From Polytrichum commune (taxonomy: Eukaryota; Streptophyta; Polytrichopsida; Polytrichales; Polytrichaceae), in contig OX485805.1 in NCBI GenBank assembly GCA_950295325.1, positions 52,352,758 to 52,416,757 on the forward strand: DNA of 64,000 nucleotides, in the 5' to 3' direction. The notes below the pieces were generated by a model. That model was not told where the DNA came from. It searched no databases and saw only the letters and a program-made list of their open reading frames with translations. The position numbers and the translations under genes were made by a program. This document shows, in pieces, positions 1-63,045 of this stretch. The stretch's first letter is position 1, and the number at the start of each line of letters is the position of its first letter.

Positions 1-97
1 TTCTTAATAACTCAATGTATCATTCCAATATGCCTTTGGAATATACACAACGTTAATGACTTATGATTTAACCCCCTAGGCTACATCCAGAACAAAT

Positions 98-722
98 TTC
101 AGAATAGTGTAATTTTCCCATTACTTCTCAGAATATTCTGAAATTTTATCTGTAAATAGAGAGACAAAGCAAAAAACATCTCACCAATTTGTGAGCCTAT
201 CCCATTTTTTGTCCGACAGTTATGACCATTTTAGTGTGTCAGTCTACCCAGATTTCAGAATGTCATAACTTCCTCCGACGGGCTCCAAAGAACATTAAAT
301 TTTGGGAGCAATCACAAAAACTAATTGTTTATGACCCCCTGAAATTTCAAATTATTTTCATTTTCTGCCAAAACGTTATGGCCTTTTTAGTCTGCAACTC
401 TTGAAAACACTTCAGAATGATATATCTCCTTCTCATCTACTCGGAGTGACTTGAAATTTGTACCACAACTAGGAAACCTAAGAACAAGGCATCCCTCAAA
501 ATTTCATGCTTTTCCAAGCCTCTTTCCAGGAGTTATGCCCATTTCAACTCGAAAATGTAGGCTAAGTTCAGAATGTCATAACTGCTGCTCCTGTACTCCA
601 AACATCCTCAGATTTTGACCATGTTCATATAAACAAGTTGTTTACTAACCCTCTAAATTTTAACAAAGTATCTTCTTCTGCTCGGAAGTTATGCCCCTTA
701 TAACCTAGACTATTCAAAGGAC
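98..722. repeat. four diverged tandem repeats of about 156 bp
   Basis: Units begin at 98, 254, 411 and 567, each with a TTCAGAAT(G/A) start, so the spacing is 156, 157 and 156 bp. Within each unit the order is CAGAATG-CATAACT, a C/T-rich stretch, a CCCT-AAATTT segment, then AGTTATG(A/C)CC-TTT near the end. The units are old and differ from each other at many positions. No coding capacity is seen. Such arrays occur in noncoding parts of plant LTR elements or as minisatellites; which applies here is unknown. Confidence 0.7.
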
Positions 723-1399
723 CCTCTCATTTACCAACTCGTGTTCCGGCAATGTGTCACCAAAAGTACTCCAACCTTCGATTTCCTCCTAGTCCGAGTG
801 AAATAATTATGGTGACACTTAGCAAACACATATACCTAAGAAATATGAACTCAAGTACTACAACTTGAAGCCATAAATTATCTTAAAATTATTCACACCC
901 AAACTAATTCTAACAAGAGGTCAAACCCTCTTCAAGGCCAACTAGCATTGGCTCCTAACTCCAAAATCATGCACACACATGTGCTCCTATCTTGTTTTCA
1001 TATACCCACACTTATAACACGTGGGGTGCCAAGGAGCACGAAACAAAGAGAGGATGAATAAGGGAAGAATGAGGGATTATATAATGAGTTTGAAGGGGTG
1101 AGCACCCTCAAGGCTCACGATAAGCCTTCGAAATCTCCTCCTACTTTGTAGGCTCTCATCTTATCTCCTAAGCCTTCCTCCCTCAAATGACCAACAAAGA
1201 TCCTAATTCCAACATTTAACTAACATTAGTTTTCTACCTACCACACTTTGCCAAGGTATGTCCTCATACTACTTGAATCCACTCCACACAAGCCTAATGC
1301 TTCAGACTTAGCTTTCCTCAAGCTTCACTCTTTTTATATTTTTGTGAATAATAAATCAACAAAACACCACTTGTAATGTTTTACAAGTGTTAACAACAC
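723..1399. other. unassigned spacer upstream of the LINE
   Basis: AT-rich sequence without a supported ORF. It may hold more decayed copies of the preceding 156-bp unit. It contains no apurinic-like endonuclease domain, so the LINE that begins near 1400 lacks its 5' part rather than continuing into this stretch. Confidence 0.5.
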
Positions 1400-3618
1400 A
1401 TGTGGGCATCAATTTGGGCTCACAGACCTATTGCTTTAGCTAACCCTATATATAAACTTTACACAAGTACACTAACCTCTATTTTATCAACATACGGAGA
1501 AAGATACCAAATACTACACGATAGCCAAGAAGGATTCAGAGCAGAAAGAAACACCTCCAGACAAATCCAAATACTAATTGCAGCGCTTGAAGACGCAAGA
1601 CTCATAAACCAAGATATATACATTCTTTACATTAACTTCAAAAACGCCTTTGGCTCCATTGACCACGCCAGACTCTTAGCCATAATGAAAGTCTTAGGTT
1701 ACCCCAATGACTCAATAAACCTCATAGGAAATATATACTCACAATCTTCAACCATATTCACTGGCGAACACTTCAGAAAAACCCTACCAATCCACATCCA
1801 AAGAGGTACAATACAAGGCGATACCCTTAGCCCATACTTATTCATCATATTTCTAGAATCCCTACTTAGATGGCTACAACAAGGAAACAATGGATATACT
1901 TTCGGTACGTCCAGACTCCAGAGTTTAAATCTCATCAGCAGCATATGCAGATGACCTTGCAGCAATCGCCGACAAACTAGAGACACTACAAACACAATTA
2001 AATAAACTAAACAAATTCTGCAAATGGGCAGGAATGGACATAGGTATACCAAAATGTGCAGTAACTGGATGCCCAAACAAATCTAAACTTAACCCCACAA
2101 CCTTCAAGGCCCTAATCCAATCCACCAACATAAACTATAGAAACGAACCTATACCAGTCCTAAACCAACACGAACCCTACACATACCTAGGAATAAATCT
2201 TGCACCATCATTCAAGTGGAAAACACAAATAAATACCACTACAGCTAAAGTAATCAAACAATGTCAAGCCCTCGTAGCATGCCTAGCTACTATGAAATAA
2301 AAAATCAATATGGCTGATACAGTCATATATGCTGGAATAGCATATAGTTTTTATGCAGTACCATACTCCATACCAGCCATAAAAAAACTTGACAAAAAGA
2401 TCATCGCACTCCTTAAAACAATATGCGGAATACCCAAATGCACATCTAATATTACTACACAACTCCCCCACAACCTATTTGGAATTGAAGCATTTTCACT
2501 ACAAAATGCCTACCTACGGTGTATTGGAGAGCAACTACAAAACGCCCTTAACGATAAATGCCGAATTGGCAAAATTTATACCGGCCTAACGCAATTTATA
2601 CTTGCCAAATACGGAGGTTCCAAAGAAATTACCCGTATTAAATACCACCACTGTGTTAGATCACCTATCACTAGAACATTATTTCTGCTCAAGCATGAAG
2701 CCGGAGTCCACCTTAAAAGTACAATAAACAACTTCCTCCTACACCCATCCCCACTCGAAAACGCGTGGATGCAAGAAGCACAAATGCTACAGGATCTAAA
2801 TCCCAACACCTCACTTAAACTATTACACAAATTGCTCATATATAATATAACAACACTAGACCAAATCACCATGCCTAATGGCACCACACTAATGAACCTA
2901 GATGAATTCAAAATCTACCACTCCACCCCTTCCAAACTCATCCAAAGTGCTCTAAACATAGCTAATCAACTATTTTGCCAACCTCTCTGTAATCTCGAAT
3001 GCCCCCTACCATGCCAACGACACCATCCACCCAGATCCCTTAAAGACAAATATATACTAAGACACCACAACATTCTACCTCACCTACCGACTCCCCCCAT
3101 ACACCCCCAAATCCTCCCATTCCCCTTCTACCCCCTCCCCCCAACAACATACTTAAGGACCCCCGACAATATCCCATATACAAAATACTTGATCACAAAC
3201 AAAAACAATCTACCGACCATAACGGAATAAAAAGAACAGTCACGTCATACCTATGTCAATGGACTATAACAAATAACGACACATACAACAAATGGCAAAC
3301 TCCAAGGGACCTATACCCCTATTGCGATGCCAACACATGCAACCACAACACCATCCTACTTACCCACTACTACACAGAAAGACAACACAAACATTTCTCA
3401 AACATTATTAATGCCTACTTCTCCACCGAACAATAAAGAGATACGAGATATGTCATACCTACCACAATAATCCCACTAGCACATATCTCTATTAATAAAT
3501 ATAACCCAGAAAATGACATCGAAACCAACTCCGATACTATCCAAATACAATTTGACGTCGCTCACATATACGAAGATAATGGTAGGCACCTCATCACCAT
3601 CCCGAAAACCATACTAAT
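1400..3618 (+). pseudogene. non-LTR retrotransposon, reverse transcriptase part (5'-truncated, broken)
   Basis: This is the reverse transcriptase core of a LINE-type element. From the 5' end it shows RPIAL-N-YKL, then YINFKNAFGSIDH (first catalytic Asp region, with Asn where Asp is usual in FxxAFDS), then QGDTLSPYLF. After a frameshift near 1930 it shows AYADD (1941-1955) and YLGINL. The frame then runs through one TAA at 2298 into a thumb-like region with the GIEAFSL motif, then a Pro/His-rich segment, with further stops at 3228 and about 3433 and a shift just before 3619. The 5' end is cut inside the RT domain, as expected from incomplete target-primed reverse transcription. No N-terminal endonuclease is present. 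This part cannot make a working polymerase. Confidence 0.9.
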
Positions 3619-5919
3619 GTGGTTATGGAACAATACCAATTGGCAAAAAATACCACACATGGTCTAGAACCGCCCACCCAATCTTTCGAAACCGAAATGG
3701 TTTGGTTATATCAAAGATACAAATACCGAATCCCGAAAAATGACCCACTCAAACGTGCCCAATACACAATACCAACTCCAATATTAGATCTCCTAATAAC
3801 CACATTCAATATCAACCAGTCATACTTCTCATCCCCAGTGACATGCCCCACGCAACTCACCCAATTCTACTCGCCATTCTCGCGTGACATAATATTTGGA
3901 TCCTTAGGGAAAGCATTTGACCACAAATGGCAAGGAATAGGATACGCTCACCCCCACAACGCAACAGACTTACAACAAGCCATTCACTGGGCTCGCATGG
4001 CGGCCCAAAATGATCCATATACAATCACTATACTTATATCTCCGGATGCCGACTGGTACAAAAATCCAAACCCGCACATAGGTCCATTCCTGGACACACA
4101 CATCATTGCCCACTTTGCAGCCGATACGATTGCATATGAAGAACCCACAATACCCCCCGAACTCAATATTACAAGAAAAGAACCGTCTACCCTACAAATA
4201 TTTTGTATCCACCACCAAAACAATAACATAAGCACCTATGAACAAATGAAATTACTAAAGGACATAGCAGATAATCTCCAAATATTACAAAGCCACATCC
4301 AAATTGCACCACCCACCCCTTCAAACATCATAGTAAACTCTAGTAAAAAATGGTCTAAATCAAACTACCCAAAGATACCTCCAAACAATAACACCCTCAC
4401 CCCACAACTCCCAAACTACCAAACGAACCTACCACTAAAATTCCACCCCCAATTCAGCTACTACACTGATGGCTCCTTTATGAAACCCACAGAAATAGCC
4501 CCTGGGGAATGGAGAAGAGAAAGAGCTGGATACGGTATCTACAGCCCCAAAGGGCTAAACATAGCCAATAGATTACATGAACATCAAAACATATTACGAG
4601 CAGAAATGATTGCTATATACGAAACACTAAGCATCATCAACACACAATATCCCAACGAACCCGCATTCATATTCACAGACAATCTAAATGTATTATACCT
4701 ACTTAACACTCAAATTAAACACCCCACACTTCATAATAGTCACCCAAACCAAACCACACTAGCCTCCATGGTAAAAACTCTTCAAAAAAGGATACAACCA
4801 ATTACACTATACAAAGTTAGAACACACGTCAACATTGACAGCAATGAAAAAGCAGACAAACTAGCAAAAGAAGGATTAGAATTAGAGCACAGAATTGCCG
4901 CCCACCCATACGAACATGTCCACGCCACCCCTTACTATTACCAAAAAGACGTATGGGCCTCGATGGAAGACGTTCCGGACAAAGGCCCACTTAGATTCTT
5001 AGAAAAACAAATTAAAAAATATGATAGGGAAACGAACCTAGCAATCATGGCCACACAAACCCCCAACACCTGTAAATGGACAGAAAACATAGATATAGAC
5101 AACGAGTTGACGAACGAATTCTGGACAAATCCCGCTATCACCGACAAACAAAAATCATGCCTCATCAAATTCCGCACAGGAACCTACATGGGTAATGCGA
5201 GAAAACAAATGTTTTTTGGCCACCAAAGATTTCCCACTATCACGTGCCCCATATGCAACTCAAATGAATCAGATACATGGATACATGTATTACTTACATG
5301 TAAACACCAACATATACACTCACTTAGAGTTAAAAGACATAACAAAGCAGTCGGAGAAATTAGGAAGCTCCTAATCTCATCAGAAATATCCCGATGCTTT
5401 ACTCTCATGAATGCTGGCACCTTCAATAACAACCCCCAAGAAAACACAGTCCCCAATTGGCTACTCCCCTGCACATGTAGTACACAAAGATGTCATTGCA
5501 ACGCAAGATTTAGACCTGATATCCTCTGTGTTAAAGGACTCCCCTATCAAAATGCCCCTCCCAGCGATGTCGACCCTAACCTTACCATACAATTCATTGA
5601 ATTCACATACTGCAATGACAGATTCTCCCCAGAAGCAATTGAAGCAAAAAATAACAAATACAACCCACTAATTGCTAGCATTGCTTCCAAAGGATGGAAA
5701 ATCGAACCACTTATTGTCATCATTGCTGGTGCCAGAGCGACTGCCCACATCCCATCTATGAGAGCACTAGAAACCAACTTCAAAATACCTATGGCCACCA
5801 TCAAAAATACTTTCAAAAATATTAACACCATTGCAATACAATATGCTATGTCTATTCTCCTCCATAAAAGGAGAATTGAAAACCACCAACCACTCCCCCA
5901 AAATCCAGACCCCCCATAA
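3619..5919 (+). CDS. LINE C-terminal polyprotein: Dam-like region, RNase H, CCHC, RLE-type endonuclease
   Basis: An uninterrupted 766-residue frame, the downstream part of the element above (one shift away from it). Residues about 84-176 (YSPF, GYAHPH at 108-113, SPDADWY at 141-147, HIIAHF at 161-166) follow the layout of phage-type Dam adenine methyltransferases, but the NPPY position reads AHPH, so activity is doubtful. Residues about 280-420 are RNase H: YTDGS (D284), AEM (E329), FTDN (D354) and EKADKLA (D413). A zinc knuckle C-X2-C-X9-H-X4-C spans C543-C561. It is followed by RHN (573-575), PD (633-634), E661 and K680-Y681, the order of the R2/CRE-type restriction-like endonuclease. The first codon here is GTG, so this is probably not a separate ORF but the tail of one long polyprotein. 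RNase H is secure, RLE likely, the methyltransferase assignment tentative. Confidence 0.85.
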   Translation: MVMEQYQLAKNTTHGLEPPTQSFETEMVWLYQRYKYRIPKNDPLKRAQYTIPTPILDLLITTFNINQSYFSSPVTCPTQLTQFYSPFSRDIIFGSLGKAFDHKWQGIGYAHPHNATDLQQAIHWARMAAQNDPYTITILISPDADWYKNPNPHIGPFLDTHIIAHFAADTIAYEEPTIPPELNITRKEPSTLQIFCIHHQNNNISTYEQMKLLKDIADNLQILQSHIQIAPPTPSNIIVNSSKKWSKSNYPKIPPNNNTLTPQLPNYQTNLPLKFHPQFSYYTDGSFMKPTEIAPGEWRRERAGYGIYSPKGLNIANRLHEHQNILRAEMIAIYETLSIINTQYPNEPAFIFTDNLNVLYLLNTQIKHPTLHNSHPNQTTLASMVKTLQKRIQPITLYKVRTHVNIDSNEKADKLAKEGLELEHRIAAHPYEHVHATPYYYQKDVWASMEDVPDKGPLRFLEKQIKKYDRETNLAIMATQTPNTCKWTENIDIDNELTNEFWTNPAITDKQKSCLIKFRTGTYMGNARKQMFFGHQRFPTITCPICNSNESDTWIHVLLTCKHQHIHSLRVKRHNKAVGEIRKLLISSEISRCFTLMNAGTFNNNPQENTVPNWLLPCTCSTQRCHCNARFRPDILCVKGLPYQNAPPSDVDPNLTIQFIEFTYCNDRFSPEAIEAKNNKYNPLIASIASKGWKIEPLIVIIAGARATAHIPSMRALETNFKIPMATIKNTFKNINTIAIQYAMSILLHKRRIENHQPLPQNPDPP

Positions 5920-6137
5920 CTCAGAACTTAAAAGTTAGGGTAAGGGGCAAGGGGTATTATATTAGGCGTAGTTTACATTAATGGTTTCTTGTGTCTAAAG
6001 TGTCTACTCTCGAAAGGGGGGAGTAGATCTTCTCCTTCATACCTCTGTCATGTGGGCTTGGGATTGAAGGTAGATCGAACAGACACTTAATTCACGTCGG
6101 TCTCCTTCGGAGACCGAAGTTGTTGTTATTATTATTG
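5920..6137 (+). other. LINE 3' UTR with hairpin and simple-repeat tail
   Basis: After the TAA the sequence carries a perfect 8-bp stem with a 3-nt loop at 6098-6116 (CGGTCTCC / GGAGACCG) directly before a TTG/TTA simple-repeat tail (about 6119-6136). A weaker stem (CTACTC/GAGTAG) lies near 6004-6026. A 3' hairpin plus microsatellite tail is typical of several LINE clades and is thought to be recognised by the reverse transcriptase. It marks the 3' end of the element; no clear target duplication was found. Confidence 0.65.
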
Positions 6138-6149
6138 TCACTTATCCTA

Positions 6150-6650
6150 TTTTTGACATATCCTACGTCACACCAATGATCAACAAATTTGCCACAAATG
6201 TCACCTCATGACACTTGGCATTCATGTGTGCTAGCAATTGGCATGAGTATGTTCAATAATGTTATGAGGCATATGCCTATGCTTCACAACGGTGTACAAG
6301 TAGACTAAAGTGTACACAAATAACACCTGGTGTTAGTACACCAAATATCTTCCTTTCCTCTTGTATAGTAAATTGTAAACACGTGACACTTTCCCTTAGT
6401 ATGCTTAATACCATCTTCCCGTTGCATACTAAAATGTAGAATTGTCATCTCAAGTATCCCAACATGCTATGCTGAATGTCATGGTGTAAATCATTTTCAC
6501 TTTAAAATAGTAATTATATTGACGAATAGTGTCATATTGGCAATTAGTACTAGACGTGACACTTTGAGACCTCTAAGAATCTATTTCAATCCCTTCACAT
6601 ATAATGTAATGACACTAAATATTATAAACGGTGTATTTATATTACGATGC
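6150..6650 (+). repeat. dispersed repeat family R1, copy a
   Basis: Related to 41905-42040, 55015-55380 and 59845-60035. Shared landmarks are CACCAATGATCAAC, GCATGAGTATGTTCAAT, TTGACGAATA-TGTCATATTGGCAAT and GACACTAAAT near the right end. TGACAC/GTGTCA motifs recur throughout. No ORF. Terminal structure was not resolved, so the class is unknown; the many GACACT motifs would fit a nonautonomous DNA element. Confidence 0.6.
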
Positions 6651-7164
6651 CACAATATATTATTTTAATCCAAAAGCAAATTGGCATGCGCATTTATTAG
6701 AATCCACATTTGAATATCCGGTGTTCAAAAATTATTTTAATCAACAATCCACGCCTAATATCTAGTTTATAGTTAGTGTGGACCGCGTTATTATCTTATG
6801 TAGAAAATTGGTATGGAGAGTTTACTATTGTGATAGTAAACACCCAAAATAGTGTGGAATGCCAATAATTGGCCTGCGACAACCTAATTGCACATATCAA
6901 TGTAGCATGAATGTTAGAAAGGGAATGGGAAGATTTGATGTGGCTGTCTTTCCTACTCGAACCTACTTTGAACTTTCCCAAATTCATTATATTGTACATC
7001 TCTTTTCTTGTGAAGTGTATACGGTAGCAGGGTTCGGGAGATTTTTGAGCTCAACCAGCTAAAATCCGTCCCTTCATAATTTCTACCGGTTTTTTTAAGA
7101 TTTGATCAGTTGCAAACTTGTTGTCATTAATTTGGATCGGCCAATATCCTATTTTTTTTTTCAA
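6651..7164. other. AT-rich spacer, nothing recognised
   Basis: Only short chance frames are present. The stretch separates repeat R1 from the inverted-repeat pair member that begins near 7165. Confidence 0.4.
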
Positions 7165-7775
7165 GTGCCGGTTAATTTCCTCTTCATTGTAATGACAACC
7201 GGCCAAAAACTCGAGCATTGATAAGTAAGTTGGTTTTTCAATTATATCTACAAACAACATACACCATTCAACAACAATGTCCAAAGAACATATCAACATA
7301 CAACAATAATATGTAATGATATCAACATCCAACAAGAATGATCAACAATTTATCCGTAGCAGGAGTTGAACCTAAAATAAGCCATCAACCGGTTGATGGC
7401 CATGGATAGACTCTTCTATCATACCTAGGTCTTAAAACCTCGTATTAGATTTGAGGCCACAACATGATAAAAGAGTAACCTAACATACCATACCATATAC
7501 AAAAATGAAATTCACCAATTGTTAGAGTCAAAATCAACAATATCATCTTCACCTTCAAGAGGAAAACGCCCTGAAAGGTATCTTTAATTTGTGGATGTGA
7601 AAACAACCATCTAAACTTTGTAGAGTTCCTTCATAAAGCCATGGCTTCCATTAGTACATTATCAAGATCACCGCAAAGATGTTCCATATACACAGTCATA
7701 ATACATTCTAAACGCTAGCTGTCATCAATGAAATGCAATAATGAAGCAAAAGCATCGTTAAGTTTCTTGTGACCT
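7165..7775 (-). repeat. dispersed repeat R4, minus copy
   Basis: Reverse complement of 13505-14118, easily aligned over about 610 bp. Read on the minus strand, both copies start with a frame giving FASLLHFI, a TAG at the same place, then RLECIM and GDLDNVLMEA, and a later PLEGEDD segment that ends at a stop. After that comes noncoding sequence with the shared motif GACCTAGGTATGATAGAAGA. It looks like the 3' end of an unknown protein-coding element. Confidence 0.65.
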
Positions 7776-8574
7776 ACACGGCTGAGAACCTCCCTCATTC
7801 AATATCCGCCCATACCCTTGGGAGACCAGCCAATATCCGCCTATACCCTCGGGAAGCCCAACTCATTTCCGCCATTTTTTGAACCTGAGGGGTTAAATTT
7901 CCTACATTATCTCATATTGGTCGGTTGATTTCCTATACTCTTCATATTTAACTCAATTATACGGCCGAAATCTCCCAAAAAAAATCGGTAATTTTACAAT
8001 TTCACTCGGCTAATTAACAACTAGCTGCCAAATCTCCCCGATCATTGTATGGTAGCATTGATGTCGAGAAGGTTTTCGGAAGTTGCCAAGATTTGATGTG
8101 GGTACAAATCCACTATGAACATGCTTTGATCTTTCCAAAATCTATATTATCCTCAATTTCCCCCTACAATGTGCACGTGGCATTGATATCGATAAGGCAT
8201 TGGGAAATGCTTGGCAAATCAACTTTTCCATGGTGACACCACAATTACTAATTTATGTGCACTAACTTCCCACATGACCCACACTTATAGGACCATTTAT
8301 TCCACACTCCAATTGCAGCATTGGAGTGCATTGACCGGGAAGGTATGGGGGTGTTATTTCGTTTGTTTTTCGTGTTCTCCAACTTTTGCTAATCTCATAT
8401 TACAAAATTCGTGTTGCATTAGCGAATCTACGATGAATCATCTGCAAAATTTAGATTGAAAATTGGACTTCCCCTAATTTATTAATGATTATCGGAAGTG
8501 TATGTTGGTTGATTTCTTAATAGAATACATAGGTCCTCCCAATTGCGTCCACCATTGAGTTTAGAATTAATATA
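7776..8574. other. spacer with a 31-bp direct duplication
   Basis: A short tandem pair (AATATCCGCC-TACCCT-GGGA) lies at about 7801-7860. The rest is AT-rich with no supported gene. Confidence 0.4.
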
Positions 8575-9215
8575 CAGTAATCTCCCGCTTAGGTATGCAC
8601 CCGTTTAAGTACGCATCTCGGTTAAGTGCGCAATTTTTTTGACAAAAATTAGGGTTCATACTTTATTGTTTGAACATGTCATGCAGAGTCATTTGCCGTG
8701 AATGCATAATTTTTTTATGCTTGACATGAAATGCCAGTTTGTTAACGTTTCCCTAAAATGTCTCATATGATCGTCCCAATTCATCATACATACGTCCAAC
8801 TTTTGTTTGAACATCAAAGCAAAGCAATTGGTCGGTGATATAGAGGACAATGTTGTGTAGAACTTCAAAGCCTTTGAAGTCAGTAGCAATTTCAAATTTA
8901 GCAAATGTCTCGATAGGTTGGATCTCATTGCAACATGTTCTCCTGATTGTCCCATATTTTCTGGATGGTGCCTTCACTGACTTCATACTCCCACCCCAAC
9001 GCATGCTTGCTCGGCGCGTTCAGCTTGCTCAACTTTGCAATGATTTCACATCGTTGGGCTTCAGTCAAGCGGGTTGCCTCAAGTTTCATTCGTTTCCCAT
9101 TGCAATTTATCAAATCAGAGGGTCTAGAAAGTGATATGAGTAAAGTATGCACCTACCAACTAAGTGCACACCAACAGCTCCAGTTCAAAGTGCATACTTA
9201 AGCGGGAGATTATTG
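8575..9215 (-). mobile_element. pogo/Tigger-type DNA transposon, internally deleted (641 bp)
   Basis: Terminal inverted repeats CAGTAATCTCCCGCTTAGG (left) and, read inward from the right, CAATAATCTCCCGCTTAAG, continuing to about 28 bp. TA occurs on both sides (8573-8574 and 9216-9217), the target duplication of Tc1/mariner/pogo elements. CAGT termini plus a CENP-B-type DNA-binding region identify the pogo/Tigger group. The element is far shorter than an autonomous one (usually over 2 kb) and lacks the DDE core. Confidence 0.88.
8663..9152 (-). pseudogene. Tigger transposase remnant: CENP-B-like N-terminal helix-turn-helix
   Basis: On the minus strand from 9152 the frame reads RLTEAQRCEIIAKL, then NAPSK, then EVSEGTIQKIW, the CENP-B/pogo N-terminal DNA-binding fold. 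A shift near 8930 moves reading into another frame that runs through a stop at 8753 and ends LHDMFKQ with a stop at 8663-8665, similar to the short basic tail of Tigger proteins. The catalytic middle is missing. An intact copy of this form could bind the TIRs without cutting; this one is frameshifted. Confidence 0.7.
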
Positions 9216-9217
9216 TA

Positions 9218-10521
9218 TGAAGACGTGGTCCAATCTCTTTTCAACACATGCCTTTATGATGTTTGCTCTTTGATCCTCACCGAACCACATACTAGTCGAA
9301 TTTAGGGGTCCGATTGAGAAAATGAGCCACTTAAGAGCCATCTCCCTCAATGCATTTCACAATGCAAGAACTTAGAAGACCCCCAAATCCCCCAAATCCC
9401 CCTTAGGACACTACACTGATTATCCCAATTAGGGTGCGTTGCTATTCGAAATTGCAAAGTGCGACAATTATTTAATGAGAATCAAATATTTTACCAAGCA
9501 AAGCCATTCATATTCTAAAACGTCTAAAGAAAATATTGAACTTTTGTTAGCAATAATTGAACTCTTGAACAAGACAATATTGCAATGCGTAATTCTAACA
9601 AGAGCACGCACTAATTGATTGGATTTTGCTAGATACAATCTACACTAATTATTCATGATTGATTGGATTTTGTTTGACTGGCATCAAAAAAACAAGTTTT
9701 GGGGTATCAAAGAGGATTAAAAACAATAGCCATAGTTGATTACACTACTCTTACATACCGTAGCACCATTGCTAGTTTGTGCAAAAATAATTCCCCCAAA
9801 AAACCATAAAAAAACAAAAAATTATGAGCCTAATCAAACGAATAAGTGAAATTTTATATTTTAAAAAATGAATACTGACCGTCCTTATTGGGGGAAAAAA
9901 TGATTTTTTCTTAATCATAAGGCATACGGAATTTTAAAATTTGTATTTCAAACTAATGAAGCTTTAAAAAAAATTGTTTCGAGGTGCATGAACCAACTAT
10001 GATGCTACAGTATAAGGTAGGACAAATACAAAAGTCTGATTAGTGCATATGCTATTATAATTGCAAAACATTTTTTGCATAACATGCATTATATTAAAAC
10101 CAAAGGCAAGAAGTAGTACAATTATTTGTATAATTAAAATTATCGACCTTACAAAGACCTAACTTTTTAGTGCCCCCCTTTGAAATAAGATGCTTCAGCC
10201 ACCTTTCTAGTTTCCCAAGTTTCTAAGGGTTCGGTAATATGGCTAAATACGTTGACATTTCCATGTACTATCTTCCCTATTATTAGATTTTGAGATTGAA
10301 CATAATGTTCACTAGGAGGTCAACAATGTTTGCCTTCTTATTTGGAGCAAAACGCTGTTCATGTCAAGGGCTAAGTGTTCTAGTACCCATCTACCTCATT
10401 TGAAGAAGGAAAAGGAACTTCTCCCACCAAGCAAGTTACATTACATTCAATCTTTAAGAACTTACAATTATGTTGTTTATTTTGCAATTGGTCGTAGGAT
10501 CTTTGCACCAAGGAGTCGAAT
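9218..10521. other. AT-rich spacer, nothing recognised
   Basis: Long A/T runs, no supported ORF, no inverted-repeat termini seen. Confidence 0.4.
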
Positions 10522-10529
10522 GTTAGGAG

Positions 10530-11012
10530 CAGAGCCCAACATTTTTCCTTTAAATTGCACCCATACCTAGACCATGCCCATCAGCAGCGACCTATGACCA
10601 CCCATGCCCACCCATAGCATGACATGTGCGCACCCATGCCCACACATAGCATGACATGTGCCCACCCATGCCCACCCATGCTATTTAAATTGCACCCATG
10701 TATTCAAAAATTGTGTAATGTGTACTACCCACCTTTCAGCTTCCATCACAAGAGAATATTGAATTTAGCAGTGGTATCCAATATGCTTTGCTTTAGCCCA
10801 TGCTCACCCATGAACAATAATATTGAACCAATGCCCACCCATGAACAATAACATCGCAGCCATGCCCACCCATGCCCACTCATGAATAACAATATCGCAG
10901 CCATGCCCACCCATGCCCACCCATGAACAATAATATCGCAGCCATGCCCACCCAAAACCCATGAGCATGAGTGGGCATGGGCATGGGTATGGGCACCCAA
11001 TGTAGGGCTCTG
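10530..11012. mobile_element. nonautonomous hAT element with minisatellite interior (483 bp)
   Basis: Fourteen-bp terminal inverted repeats CAGAGCCCAACATT / AATGTAGGGCTCTG differ at one position. The perfect 8-bp direct repeat GTTAGGAG flanks it (10522-10529 and 11013-11020), the hAT signature together with CAG termini. The interior is a minisatellite built on CATGCCCACC and GAACAATAATATCGCAGC units and has no transposase. Confidence 0.9.
10585..10985. repeat. CATGCCCACC minisatellite inside the hAT element
   Basis: The short unit CCCACCCATG recurs many times. From about 10800 to 10960 it alternates with GAACAATAATATCGCAGC in units of roughly 30-50 bp. The final part turns into the opposite orientation (GGGCATGGGCATGGG), so the interior can fold on itself. 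Confidence 0.8.
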
Positions 11013-11020
11013 GTTAGGAG

Positions 11021-11369
11021 TGTGATGGACTTGACGATAATGTGGGTAACTTAGCTTGCAACTCTCCTTTCTTAGAAAAAGAAACAAATGATGATGAGTG
11101 TTCATCCGTGTGAAAAACCGTTCACCCACCGCTACAATTAGGACGTGTGCCCTAAGGAGTGGAGGAGGGGAAATGCATGTCCTAGCTATGAAGGTAAATG
11201 GTGCTTAACTTTCGTCCAAGTCTCCTTTGTTTAGAAAGATAAATGCAATGTATTTTATGAGAGTTTGTTGAGTAGAGTACATGTCGAATTTTAATGGCGG
11301 TTTTACGAATTTTAAGATCAATGATTTGTACGACATATAGGTTGTAAGATGGCGCATCGGATGCTGGTA
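11021..11369. other. spacer, nothing recognised
   Basis: No supported ORF and no terminal repeats; simple unique-looking sequence between the hAT element and repeat R5. Confidence 0.35.
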
Positions 11370-34430: not shown

Positions 34431-36204
34431 AACCTATTCATGTTGTTATCATAAACTTCTTAAATCATGGTAAATCTCTTTTTATTTATCATGATGGGAT
34501 GTGTAGTGTTTCTAGCGTTGCAATTGAGTGATCATGGATGGCAACTTAAACTCTAGCAGTGATGGTGACAAGAAGGTTTACCTTCCACCCTATATGTTTG
34601 AAGGTAGTTATGAGGGGTTGTATTTGTTGTATTTTTCCTTTAATGGCTTCTACAAGGATTTTTCATTGCAACATGTAAATCCTATAAATTGTATTGTATT
34701 CAGTAGGGTCAGTGTTATTGGTGATTGGCTTTCAATTGGGGCGCCTTGTGCAAATAATATATCCGGTCTTAGCCTAGCCATGCACGAACATGGTGGGGTG
34801 TTACATGTACATTGAAGTAACCATTATGAGACCGTTATTTCTTGTGGTCTATTGATTTTTATTACATGCATTTACTAGGGGAAAGCATCTCGTGAGTTTG
34901 TTTGTGGAGAGCGTGTGAGCTATTTGGTGGATTGCATTGTTGTGTTTAGCTATGCGGAGCCATTTGTTTGGGTATGCGGACATGAGATGTGCTCATGTGC
35001 TCATTATGTTGTATGGCATAATGCGCAATTTGGAATTGAGTGTGTTGTGTGCCAAAAGGTGTTTTCCCCTATGGTTCCTCATGTACTAGGCATATTCAAA
35101 ATTCAGCGTTTGTGTTATCTGGGCATCTGGGGGTGTCCCTGATTCCATGGGCTTTTCTAATTGGATGGACAATTTGTGATTGATTTCTTTCATTGGAAAC
35201 CCATTTATGTACGTGGTTTGGATTTTGGTTCGACTCTTTCGACTTCTTCTTGGATGTTCTTCACTTACACAACTTTGTAGTTTGTGAATTGATCGGTATA
35301 TGGGTTTCCTACTAGCCAACATGGGGTTGTGTGGGCTGCCTGAATGTGTGGCATTGGGATGGGTTTTTCCAAGACAAAGAATAAATTATTGTATGCAAAT
35401 GTACCTCACATCCATCCAACACAAATGCCTTGAAATAATACGCAACCCGGAGGTTGTTTTTGCAATTTAAGTCGATTTGACACCGAAATTTGTTTTATAG
35501 ACCACGAATTAGCTACTTAGCATCGTTTGAGATGAATCGACAACAAACCTATAGAAGGTCAAGTTGTTGTGTTGGATGGATGAGAAGTACGCTCAAATAC
35601 AAAAATTTATTCTCTCTCCTCGAGCGGGGAGGACTCCTTCTCAATGTACAAGCCTTTAAAGTGGAAAGTGGAATTTGCCATCTTTCACCGGAATCGTCAA
35701 AGAAAGTTTCATAGGAAAGGCGACACAAACATTATGGTACTACAATAGGCGACTTTTTGCAGATGGACAAATTTGTATGGACGGTGGTCGCCCACTCGGA
35801 CCCCCACCCTCGGTCACCTTGCACACTAGACGATGTTCTCCTTGGGAGAGACAAAGACGCGACTATTGTTTACTTTGTTATTATTCCCGGGTCCTCTAAT
35901 AACACACATGGAATATATAACCACTCATCACCAATTACCCCAATTAGCGTGTGCTTTGTAATGTCCGAACAACCTATTGAACCCATAACCGATCACGTAA
36001 GAGGTTTTGCGCCCAGTCCGGAGAAGTATAAGGTGGTGCAAACCCCCCCCCCCCCTCCATGCAGGAAGTTAGAGATGAGGAGGATTGCAAATTTTTCGGT
36101 GATTTCATTCCTTACACTGAAAATCACTGTGAGTTTTTGAAGCCAAAAGTTGGCCCGAACATACGACCAATGTCTGGAGTCTACCATAACCGCTCATTCC
36201 TCCT
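34431..36204. other. spacer, nothing recognised
   Basis: Frames of 60-127 codons (for example 35757-36140 plus) have no recognisable domain. A poly-C run is present at about 36043-36055. Confidence 0.35.
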
Positions 36205-62120: not shown

Positions 62121-62138
62121 TCGAATTAAAATAAAACT

Positions 62139-63045
62139 TTGTTGCATGAAATTTTAGGGGAAAAAACAAACAAAACATCTCTAAAATATCATCAAATGAA
62201 GATTTATTTATTTGTACATGAGTTCAAACTCTCCAACCAATTCTGGAGAAACCCTGGAATAATAGACACCCATATTACACAAACCCTAAAACTAAGATAC
62301 ACCCAATACATGGGTAACCACCGTAAACATATATTTTGGCCCAATATATACCCAAACCCGAACTGTACATTATGCCCCAATAATGCCCTAGATACATGGC
62401 CACCACTACCCTCCACATGCTCAAACCCGCACCTAAAGGGATTGTGTATAGCACGACACAATAAAGCAGTACATCAAATAATACACACATTACAATCAAG
62501 TAGACATACAAGATATTACACCCTTATAAATGCATGTAACCAAAATCTTAGGCCGCAAGATAACACCGTCCCAACGTGGCCACTTCAATGCTCATGTCAC
62601 ACCACACCATGCACATGTCTAGCGAGACTCATGCCAGACATACTATGTGTGCTAGGTGCCCCCTCTGAAAGCCAACCCCCTCTAACACCAACCCAACCAA
62701 ACGTTAAACAATTTATTGAATTCACATACTGTCACGGTAGATTCCCAAATACCGCACAAAAGGAAAAAAAACAAAGAAGTACAACCCACTCATCCAAACA
62801 CTCAGAACAACTGGGTGGAAAGTCAACCCCCTCATCACTATCATAGCAAGAGTGAGAGGAGCTAGCGATCCATGAACAACCAATTAAAGAACTAGAAAAC
62901 CTCAAAATATCCAAAAAAGAAATCAAAATACTTATGAAGCAACTACACCAAATAGCCATTAAATACCTAACATACTTGATACTAAACAAAAGAAAACTAG
63001 ACAATAAACAACCCCTTGTCGATCCCCCCTAGAGGCTAGGAACTG
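62139..63045 (+). pseudogene. second copy of the RLE-type LINE, C-terminal end only
   Basis: Aligns with residues about 500-760 of the 3619-5919 protein: SNQFWRNPGII, the knuckle CTLCPNNALDTW with Pro in place of the zinc-binding His, ARHNKAV, MPDILCVLGAP, QFIEFTYC and, after a shift near 62760, KKYNPLI and GWKVNPLITIIA. The RHN, PD, E and K positions of the endonuclease are kept, which supports the domain call. 5'-truncated and frameshifted. It is too diverged to be a recent duplicate of the first copy. Confidence 0.85.

Follow-up and report, generated by a model that had tools for sequence, protein, structure and literature searches.

The locus described here raises the question of whether a land plant can harbour a long interspersed nuclear element (LINE) with two endonucleases of different kinds. 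The window analysed is a stretch of 64,000 nucleotides of the Polytrichum commune genome (assembly GCA_950295325.1, contig OX485805.1, positions 52,352,758 to 52,416,757), and the original prediction, made from its sequence, had placed at 1400–6137 an element combining a reverse transcriptase (RT), RNase H, a CCHC knuckle and an R2-type endonuclease on a plan resembling that of the Dualen/RandI elements. All four parts were recovered (Pfam PF00078 and PF00075 for the first two, sequence motifs for the CCHC knuckle and the restriction-like endonuclease, RLE). In the host genome, copies that have remained intact carry an apurinic/apyrimidinic (AP)-type endonuclease (APE) in frame with RT, RNase H and RLE, so that the reading as a Dualen/RandI-like plan is supported; kinship with the algal Dualen is suggested by this architecture, the RT tree being one without Dualen sequences. 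We consider it highly probable that the copy in the window, itself dead, belongs to an abundant family of Dualen/RandI-type LINEs in a land plant, with an N-terminal AP-type and a C-terminal R2-type endonuclease.

The window copy and its intact relatives

The window copy is a non-functional member of a very abundant LINE family. It occupies 1421–6137 on the + strand, from within RT to the 3′ repeat tail. Positions 1421–5919 align with 6564–11054 of a longer copy (L018+L005) at 86.3% DNA identity (blastn), which shows that the copy, already noted to lack its 5′ end, is truncated within RT and moves the start from 1400 to 1421; the 3′ end, correctly foreseen at about 6137, was set by comparing copies, and open reading frame (ORF) 2 itself ends at 5919. 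The + strand frames within 1394–5919, which encode RT, RNase H and at the C-terminus a CCHC and endonuclease region, are broken, with RT split over two frames, a stop before 2301 and more frame changes up to 3586. The C-terminal part of RT lies at 1421–2300 (frames 1421–1954 and 1929–2300, with YADD at 1944–1955) and matches PF00078 with an E-value of 2.4e-17, the second frame giving 2.3e-6, just below the curated cut-off. A thumb or linker region interrupted by a stop and by frame changes follows at 2301–3585, as judged from reading frames and from tblastn with L005. The remainder is read in a 777-aa frame (3586–5919) that includes a PCIF1-like domain, discussed below, and RNase H at 4456–4878 (PF00075, E 5.4e-11, above cut-off). 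The four acidic RNase H residues had been identified correctly and numbered 11 too low; they are D295, E340, D365 and D424, and H414 is also present. Over window positions 1–8000, a strong strand skew was noted across the element (GC skew −0.36 and −0.23, AT skew +0.18 and +0.14), its coding strand being rich in A and C, so that frames stay open by chance as well.

The host assembly has 407.8 Mb in 64 contigs. Of four contig ends read, one has a long CCCTAAA array, two read N and one has no array. Contig C8 is probably plastid DNA, since it bears rbcL and, by eye, accD and atpB alongside. Two PF00148 genes on C8, read as chlB and chlN, which angiosperms lack, rule out a flowering plant. None of 12 EF-Tu D3 matches lies on C8, and tufA is missing from land-plant plastids; dynein heavy chain gave 13 matches, 12 of them above cut-off, as expected of a land plant whose sperm swim. 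These features indicate a probable spore-bearing land plant; rbcL, compared with PDB, did not sharply set land plants apart from Chlamydomonas. The assembly was searched for relatives, only the best candidates being scored, and the best 58 scored matches to the 777-aa frame, the window included, all have at least 86% identity. It is confirmed that the observation is more than a chance one, since the scored matches are this similar and the motif residues are kept in diverged subfamilies. The search for full-length copies that had been suggested yielded intact ORF2 frames in L005–L007, L050–L052 and L014. In each of L005, L006 and L007 the ORF2 frame is 2625 aa long, ORF1 is 733 aa, and ORF2 runs in the order leader, GDIEPNPGP (a 2A/StopGo-type motif), AP endonuclease, RT, PCIF1-like domain, RNase H, CCHC and RLE; these copies were read up to points short of the element 5′ ends. 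Pfam assigned RVT_1 (1.1e-29), RNase_H (7.3e-13) and PCIF1_WW (3.5e-10) to the ORF2 of L005. The frames of L051 (2690 aa in the stretch read), L050 (2712 aa, likewise), L052 (2663 aa) and L014 (2372 aa), the last from a second subfamily, have the same domain order as far as read, and two further copies of that second subfamily (L015, L016) have broken frames. From RT to the end, identity to L005 is 46% for L014, 65% for L050 and 90% for L051. L005, L006 and L007 are mutually 99.37–99.55% identical over 9.6–10 kb and have different 3′ flanks, which implies that the family moved recently.

Two endonucleases and the position of the reverse transcriptase

The C-terminal endonuclease follows a CCHC knuckle at 5245–5301 (C554, C557, H567 and C572), invariant in 6/6 aligned sequences. 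The predicted series of C-X2-C-X9-H-X4-C followed by RHN, PD, E and K was located at C554 to K688/K691 of the 777-aa frame, and the RLE itself spans 5335–5916, with R584-H-N at 5335, P-D645 within 5515–5520, E672 at 5599 and K688/K691 at 5647/5656. A comparison with the R2 RLE had been called for, and a profile of six C-termini covering RLE and CCHC matched a profile of two solved R2 proteins at 95.6% (hhalign, E 1.1e-8, 202 columns), both profiles being shallow (Neff 1.7 and 1.5). The CCHC, RHN, (R/K)PD and K regions were in register with R2 in this alignment, and as a control the R2 profile gave 0.4% and 0.04% against the RT and PCIF1-like profiles of the element. With hmmsearch, the CCHC–RHN piece was correctly placed in 5/5 R2 chains shown, which represent in effect three proteins, and 3/5 also had the K region at the right place, by scores that alone are not significant. 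Several points tell against this assignment in addition to the shallowness of the profiles. The acidic strand, QFIEFTY in the element and VVDVTV in R2, is shifted by a few residues in the alignment, an RLE profile built from five sequences had no PDB match at E<=10, and the AlphaFold models were unusable, with a predicted local distance difference test (pLDDT) score of 31.7 for the RLE, modelled without an alignment and unusable for that reason, and of 35.8 for the PCIF1-like domain. Taken together, the motifs and the profile match indicate that a PD-(D/E)XK RLE is present in the same element as the APE. An extra CXCX4CXC cluster lies inside the RLE at 5470–5499, between RHN and PD; it is invariant in the aligned copies, did not appear in either R2 sequence used for comparison, and may be a second zinc site.

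The other endonuclease lies N-terminal in ORF2 of the intact copies, upstream of RT and in frame with it as well as with RNase H and RLE. The residues WN, QETK, YMP, GDFN, IDGFY and SDHYP are invariant in 4/4 aligned sequences (L005, L014–L016), and Exo_endo_phos matches a 500-aa N-terminal piece of the L005 ORF2 with E 0.012 over profile positions 1–173 of 225. This match scores only 15.9 bits against a cut-off of 24.5 and is not listed when the whole ORF2 is scanned, and in PDB the APE profile finds only ExoIII N-termini (best E 0.0046), all of which speaks against the assignment. The same profile matched the APE of a host L1 element at 53% (hhalign, E 1.3e-4, 221 columns). On the combined evidence we accept the N-terminal domain as a probable APE, with moderate strength.

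The RT profile of the element finds R2 proteins best in PDB (2.5e-40, 141 bits), although Bombyx R2, at 89 bits, is barely above human L1 ORF2p at 85 bits, a point that weakens the R2 connection. In an RT tree of 19 rows, drawn up without Dualen, RTE or outgroup sequences, the new clade was monophyletic at 100/100 (seven rows including the host locus L047) and nine L1-type rows were split from the new clade plus R2 at 100/98. Human L1, Bombyx R2, L040 and 9nl2 were flagged for long branches and Bombyx R2 for composition. Among the rows compared, RT thus falls outside L1 and together with R2, and the grouping inside L1 that would have told against the prediction was not found. One alternative is an ordinary plant L1-type LINE with a C-terminal CCHC that merely resembles the R2 knuckle. 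It has in its favour that eight of the nine other host RT loci taken for the tree group with L1 (the ninth, L047, being a member of the new clade) and that a 2022 review gives L1 and RTE as the only land-plant LINEs (PMC9033089). Set against the 100/98 support, the CCHC, RHN, PD and K regions in register with R2 and the purifying selection on the RLE described below, this reading is extremely improbable. A search of viral contigs with the RT alignment gave 226 pattern matches and 0 relatives. In one host L1 (L017:3382–8919) the ORF2 frame spans 1845 aa and continues beyond the RT part into a long C-terminal extension rich in Pro and Arg.

Both endonucleases are under strong purifying selection between two intact subfamilies. 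For L005 and L051 the ratio of non-synonymous to synonymous substitution rates (dN/dS) was 0.063 for APE, 0.065 for RT, 0.079 for the PCIF1-like domain, 0.052 for RNase H and 0.082 and 0.105 for CCHC/RLE, so that constraint on the two endonucleases is much like that on RT. The linker gave 0.31, the part just after 2A 0.13 and the leader before 2A 0.56 (48 gapped codons); in this least divergent pair, strong protein constraint begins at 2A. Values with L050 were higher (APE 0.11–0.13, last RLE part 0.11–0.14, leader 0.58 and 0.32), with dS >1 and several cells saturated, and those with L014, 0.11–0.40 in coding parts with dS saturated, detract from the case for constraint. Most LINE clades function with one endonuclease, and one of the two domains could be a redundant relic that is no longer needed. 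The low dN/dS of both between L005 and L051, together with catalytic motifs that are invariant in the aligned rows, makes such redundancy quite improbable and suggests instead that both endonucleases are needed.

A PCIF1-like domain and a 2A motif

The region between RT and RNase H had been called Dam-like. A Dam-like methylase is ruled out by the match, above cut-off in both the window copy and L005, to a PCIF1-like family, and Pfam listed no Dam family at E<=1. In the window copy PF12237 (PCIF1_WW) covers 3667–3939 with E 4.1e-9 and 36.7 bits against a cut-off of 31.1, and phmmer aligns the domain, which belongs to the family of the cap m6Am methyltransferase, weakly with 6irx (E 0.23) as far as 4077. 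PF12237 was above cut-off in the best 150 of 697 genome candidates, all of those scored, and the only PDB match to a profile of the domain was 6irx, at 0.48. The SP.(T/N)C and FGS motifs are common to PCIF1 and the element. PCIF1 has NPPF, whereas at that place, as set by the weak 6irx alignment and by eye, the window copy has HPHN (3949–3960) and the copies read have HPHN, HPPN, FPTD or HPKD; the catalytic NPPF was not found in them. The domain is conserved, and its catalytic NPPF has apparently been lost. In a review, NPPF is given as the PCIF1 motif, the helical domain is thought to bind RNA, the cap site is placed between the domains, and fly PCIF1, although catalytically dead, still binds the polymerase tail (PMC9916840). 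From the altered NPPF and these reviewed features we propose that the PCIF1-like domain binds RNA, possibly capped RNA, without methylating it. That the domain is conserved despite its changed catalytic motif suggests a role in RNA recognition. We know of no such role in any LINE.

The motif G-D-I-E-x-N-P-G-P, searched as degenerate DNA, has 135 + 120 = 255 exact matches in the genome with varied codons, and the reversed-pattern control had 0. At least 27 of the 54 sites listed on C1 have a same-strand family match 3.5–9 kb downstream, where random places average 0.10 and the other side has 0; this pairing is a lower bound, as 100 of the 255 sites were listed and only the best-scored family matches used. 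The core reads GDIEPNPGP in L005–L007, GDIETNPGP in L050 and both GDIELNPGP and GDIEINPGP in L015, and the second-subfamily copies L014–L016 have two 2A-like motifs in tandem. The core E is not matched in L014 and L016 (GDIH/GDIQ). That K replaces it (GDIK) in L051 and L052, both of them intact, and also in L053 speaks against a working 2A throughout the family. According to a 2026 survey, which also refers to work on 2A in APE-type LINEs, the 2A core is (D/G/C/N)(V/I)ExNPGP with rare functional variants, and natural StopGo was not found in plant viruses (PMC12846837). The element resembles the 2A/StopGo systems known from viruses and from the LINEs of animals and trypanosomes in having a (D/G)(V/I)ExNPGP core ahead of a LINE polyprotein, and differs from them in its occurrence in a plant. 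To our knowledge there is no case of natural 2A ribosome skipping in plants. Judged by its sequence, a 2A motif is present ahead of the endonuclease polyprotein; ribosome skipping there would be natural StopGo in a plant. A fuller proposal, which we regard as speculative and rather unlikely to hold in all its parts, is that a captured PCIF1-type cap methyltransferase has become a catalytically dead module which binds RNA or the cap and so assists the ORF2 protein (ORF2p) in choosing its own full-length capped RNA, that natural 2A skipping frees the two-endonuclease ORF2p, and that APE and RLE contribute one nick each.

Some features of the region upstream of the polyprotein were also noted. 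In L018+L005, residues 1–27 of ORF1 (MKVAYATYLVIIMWLVLATPYW) are hydrophobic and resemble a signal or anchor, the part after them contains Cys, and the ORF1 frame of L014, the copy to which this comparison was limited, begins differently. Among the upstream stretches L018–L020, L005 and L006 share about 800 bp with GAAGCTGCCGAATTG-type repeats, and L007 differs from them as far as the junction that all three have in common, which looks like an exchange of 5′ ends. Tandem repeats build the region upstream of the polyprotein in L015, L016, L014+L021 and L054, and leader stretches recur at least three times upstream in L054. At C6:16700766–16713399 (L026, L054) one copy is seemingly nested within the ORF1 of another, its 3′ flank corresponding, by eye, to the ORF1 sequence NVECLNPFVYKKFV.

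Integration and comparison with known systems

The 3′ untranslated region (UTR) of the window copy contains, at 6000–6119, an RNA structure with an outer stem and two arms and then a terminal hairpin, GGTCTCCTTCGGAGACC (folding z −3.6), followed at 6120–6137 by a (GTT)n(ATT)n tail whose ATT repeat number differs among copies. In other subfamilies, folded without a shuffle control, there is again an outer stem with two arms, then a terminal hairpin and a tail of simple repeats, all of different sequence. The outer stems are GTGTCT/AGACAC, GTGTCC/GGACAC and GAGCCC/GGGCTC, with stem pairs that change on both sides; a DNA alignment of the 3′ UTRs misplaces the outer stem between subfamilies and has too short an L050 row. 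Six other copies of the window's subfamily (L023, L024, L026–L029) have the same UTR and unrelated 3′ flanks, all seven flanks including the window's being different, and L025 departs from the UTR earlier than the other copies. ATT repeats end 5/7 tails of this subfamily, with two to five repeats in L023, L024, L026 and L029. A truncated copy (L056/L029) has a target-site duplication (TSD) of about 10–14 bp. A uniform picture of integration is disturbed by the tails of L027 and L028, which have no ATT repeats (2/7), by those of other subfamilies, which are (TATC)n or (CTTTT)n, and by the window copy, for which a trustworthy TSD was not found. The structured 3′ UTR, the repeat tail and the TSD of L056/L029 are the expected remains of target-primed reverse transcription (TPRT) with a staggered second cut.

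The following model would fit the domains and the 3′ ends. A capped element RNA would encode the ORF1 protein (733 aa) and the ORF2 frame, and a 2A/StopGo event near the ORF2 start would release the leader and leave an ORF2p of about 2,340 aa that starts at the proline after NPG. ORF2p would recognise the structured 3′ UTR and the simple-repeat tail, nick the target DNA and prime reverse transcription there, with RNase H removing the RNA, and the second endonuclease would cut the other strand some 10–14 bp away, giving rise to the target-site duplication. We infer that each endonuclease may make one of the two nicks. Young, intact copies of this kind would offer an experimental system for a long-standing question, namely which of the enzymes cuts the second strand when a LINE integrates.

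The window also contains two further relics of this family. An older, 5′-truncated copy of the second subfamily with CCHC and RLE occupies 62130–63029 on the + strand, as traced from its frames and from 58% aa identity to L014 over 62226–63029. A strongly decayed relic of the RLE region with many stops occupies 34477–35369 on the − strand and has aa identities of 30–32% to L014 and, over the PD motif, 51% to L005.

Among known systems, Dualen and RandI are the closest. By published accounts, they encode both an APE and a PD-(D/E)XK endonuclease (PMC3636483, PMC4640811), RandI is placed under green algae with (ATT)n and (CTATTT)n tails (PMC3747384), LINE/Dualen has been annotated in cryptophytes too (PMC12747079), and a Chlamydomonas paper calls Dualen 'comparatively obscure' (PMC8226300). 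None of the open-access papers retrieved on Dualen is about land plants by its title. The element shares with Dualen/RandI the two endonucleases in one element, the RT, the RNase H and a simple-repeat 3′ tail, and the (ATT)n form of the tail is common to RandI and the window's subfamily (PMC3747384). It differs in its host, a land plant as opposed to green algae, and in the protease: no protease family was given by Pfam at E<=1 in the L005 ORF2 and a 539-aa part of ORF1. Dualen carries a cysteine protease. We know of neither a PCIF1-like domain nor a 2A motif in Dualen. These two additions, with an RT that is nearest to the R2 chains of PDB by profile and that groups with R2 away from L1 in the tree, would favour an independent origin, in which a streptophyte R2- or NeSL-like element gained or kept an APE outside the algal Dualen clade. 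We hold this to be unlikely, as the same set of APE, RT, RNase H and RLE with the same kind of tail is published for Dualen/RandI, and a single origin is simpler. The combination of dual endonuclease, 2A and PCIF1-like domain has so far been linked mainly to algae and is not what plant LINEs are usually taken to contain. If a land plant has two-endonuclease LINEs that are young, intact and high in copy number, this would either extend the Dualen lineage or reveal two separate origins of the design.

R2 (PDB 9nl2, 9nl3, 8gh6) provides the nearest RT in PDB and a homologous CCHC and RLE. It has one ORF, an RLE only, no APE, no RNase H and a single ribosomal DNA target, whereas the element has an APE and, in the window's subfamily, seven differing 3′ flanks. 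Plant L1 LINEs such as the host L017 share with the element an N-terminal APE and the arrangement of ORF1 and ORF2, and differ in belonging to a separate RT clade; the L1 plan has an APE only, and the element also has an RLE. The element has the two endonucleases that define Dualen/RandI, and it is placed, next to a tree drawn without Dualen, as a variant of the Dualen kind.

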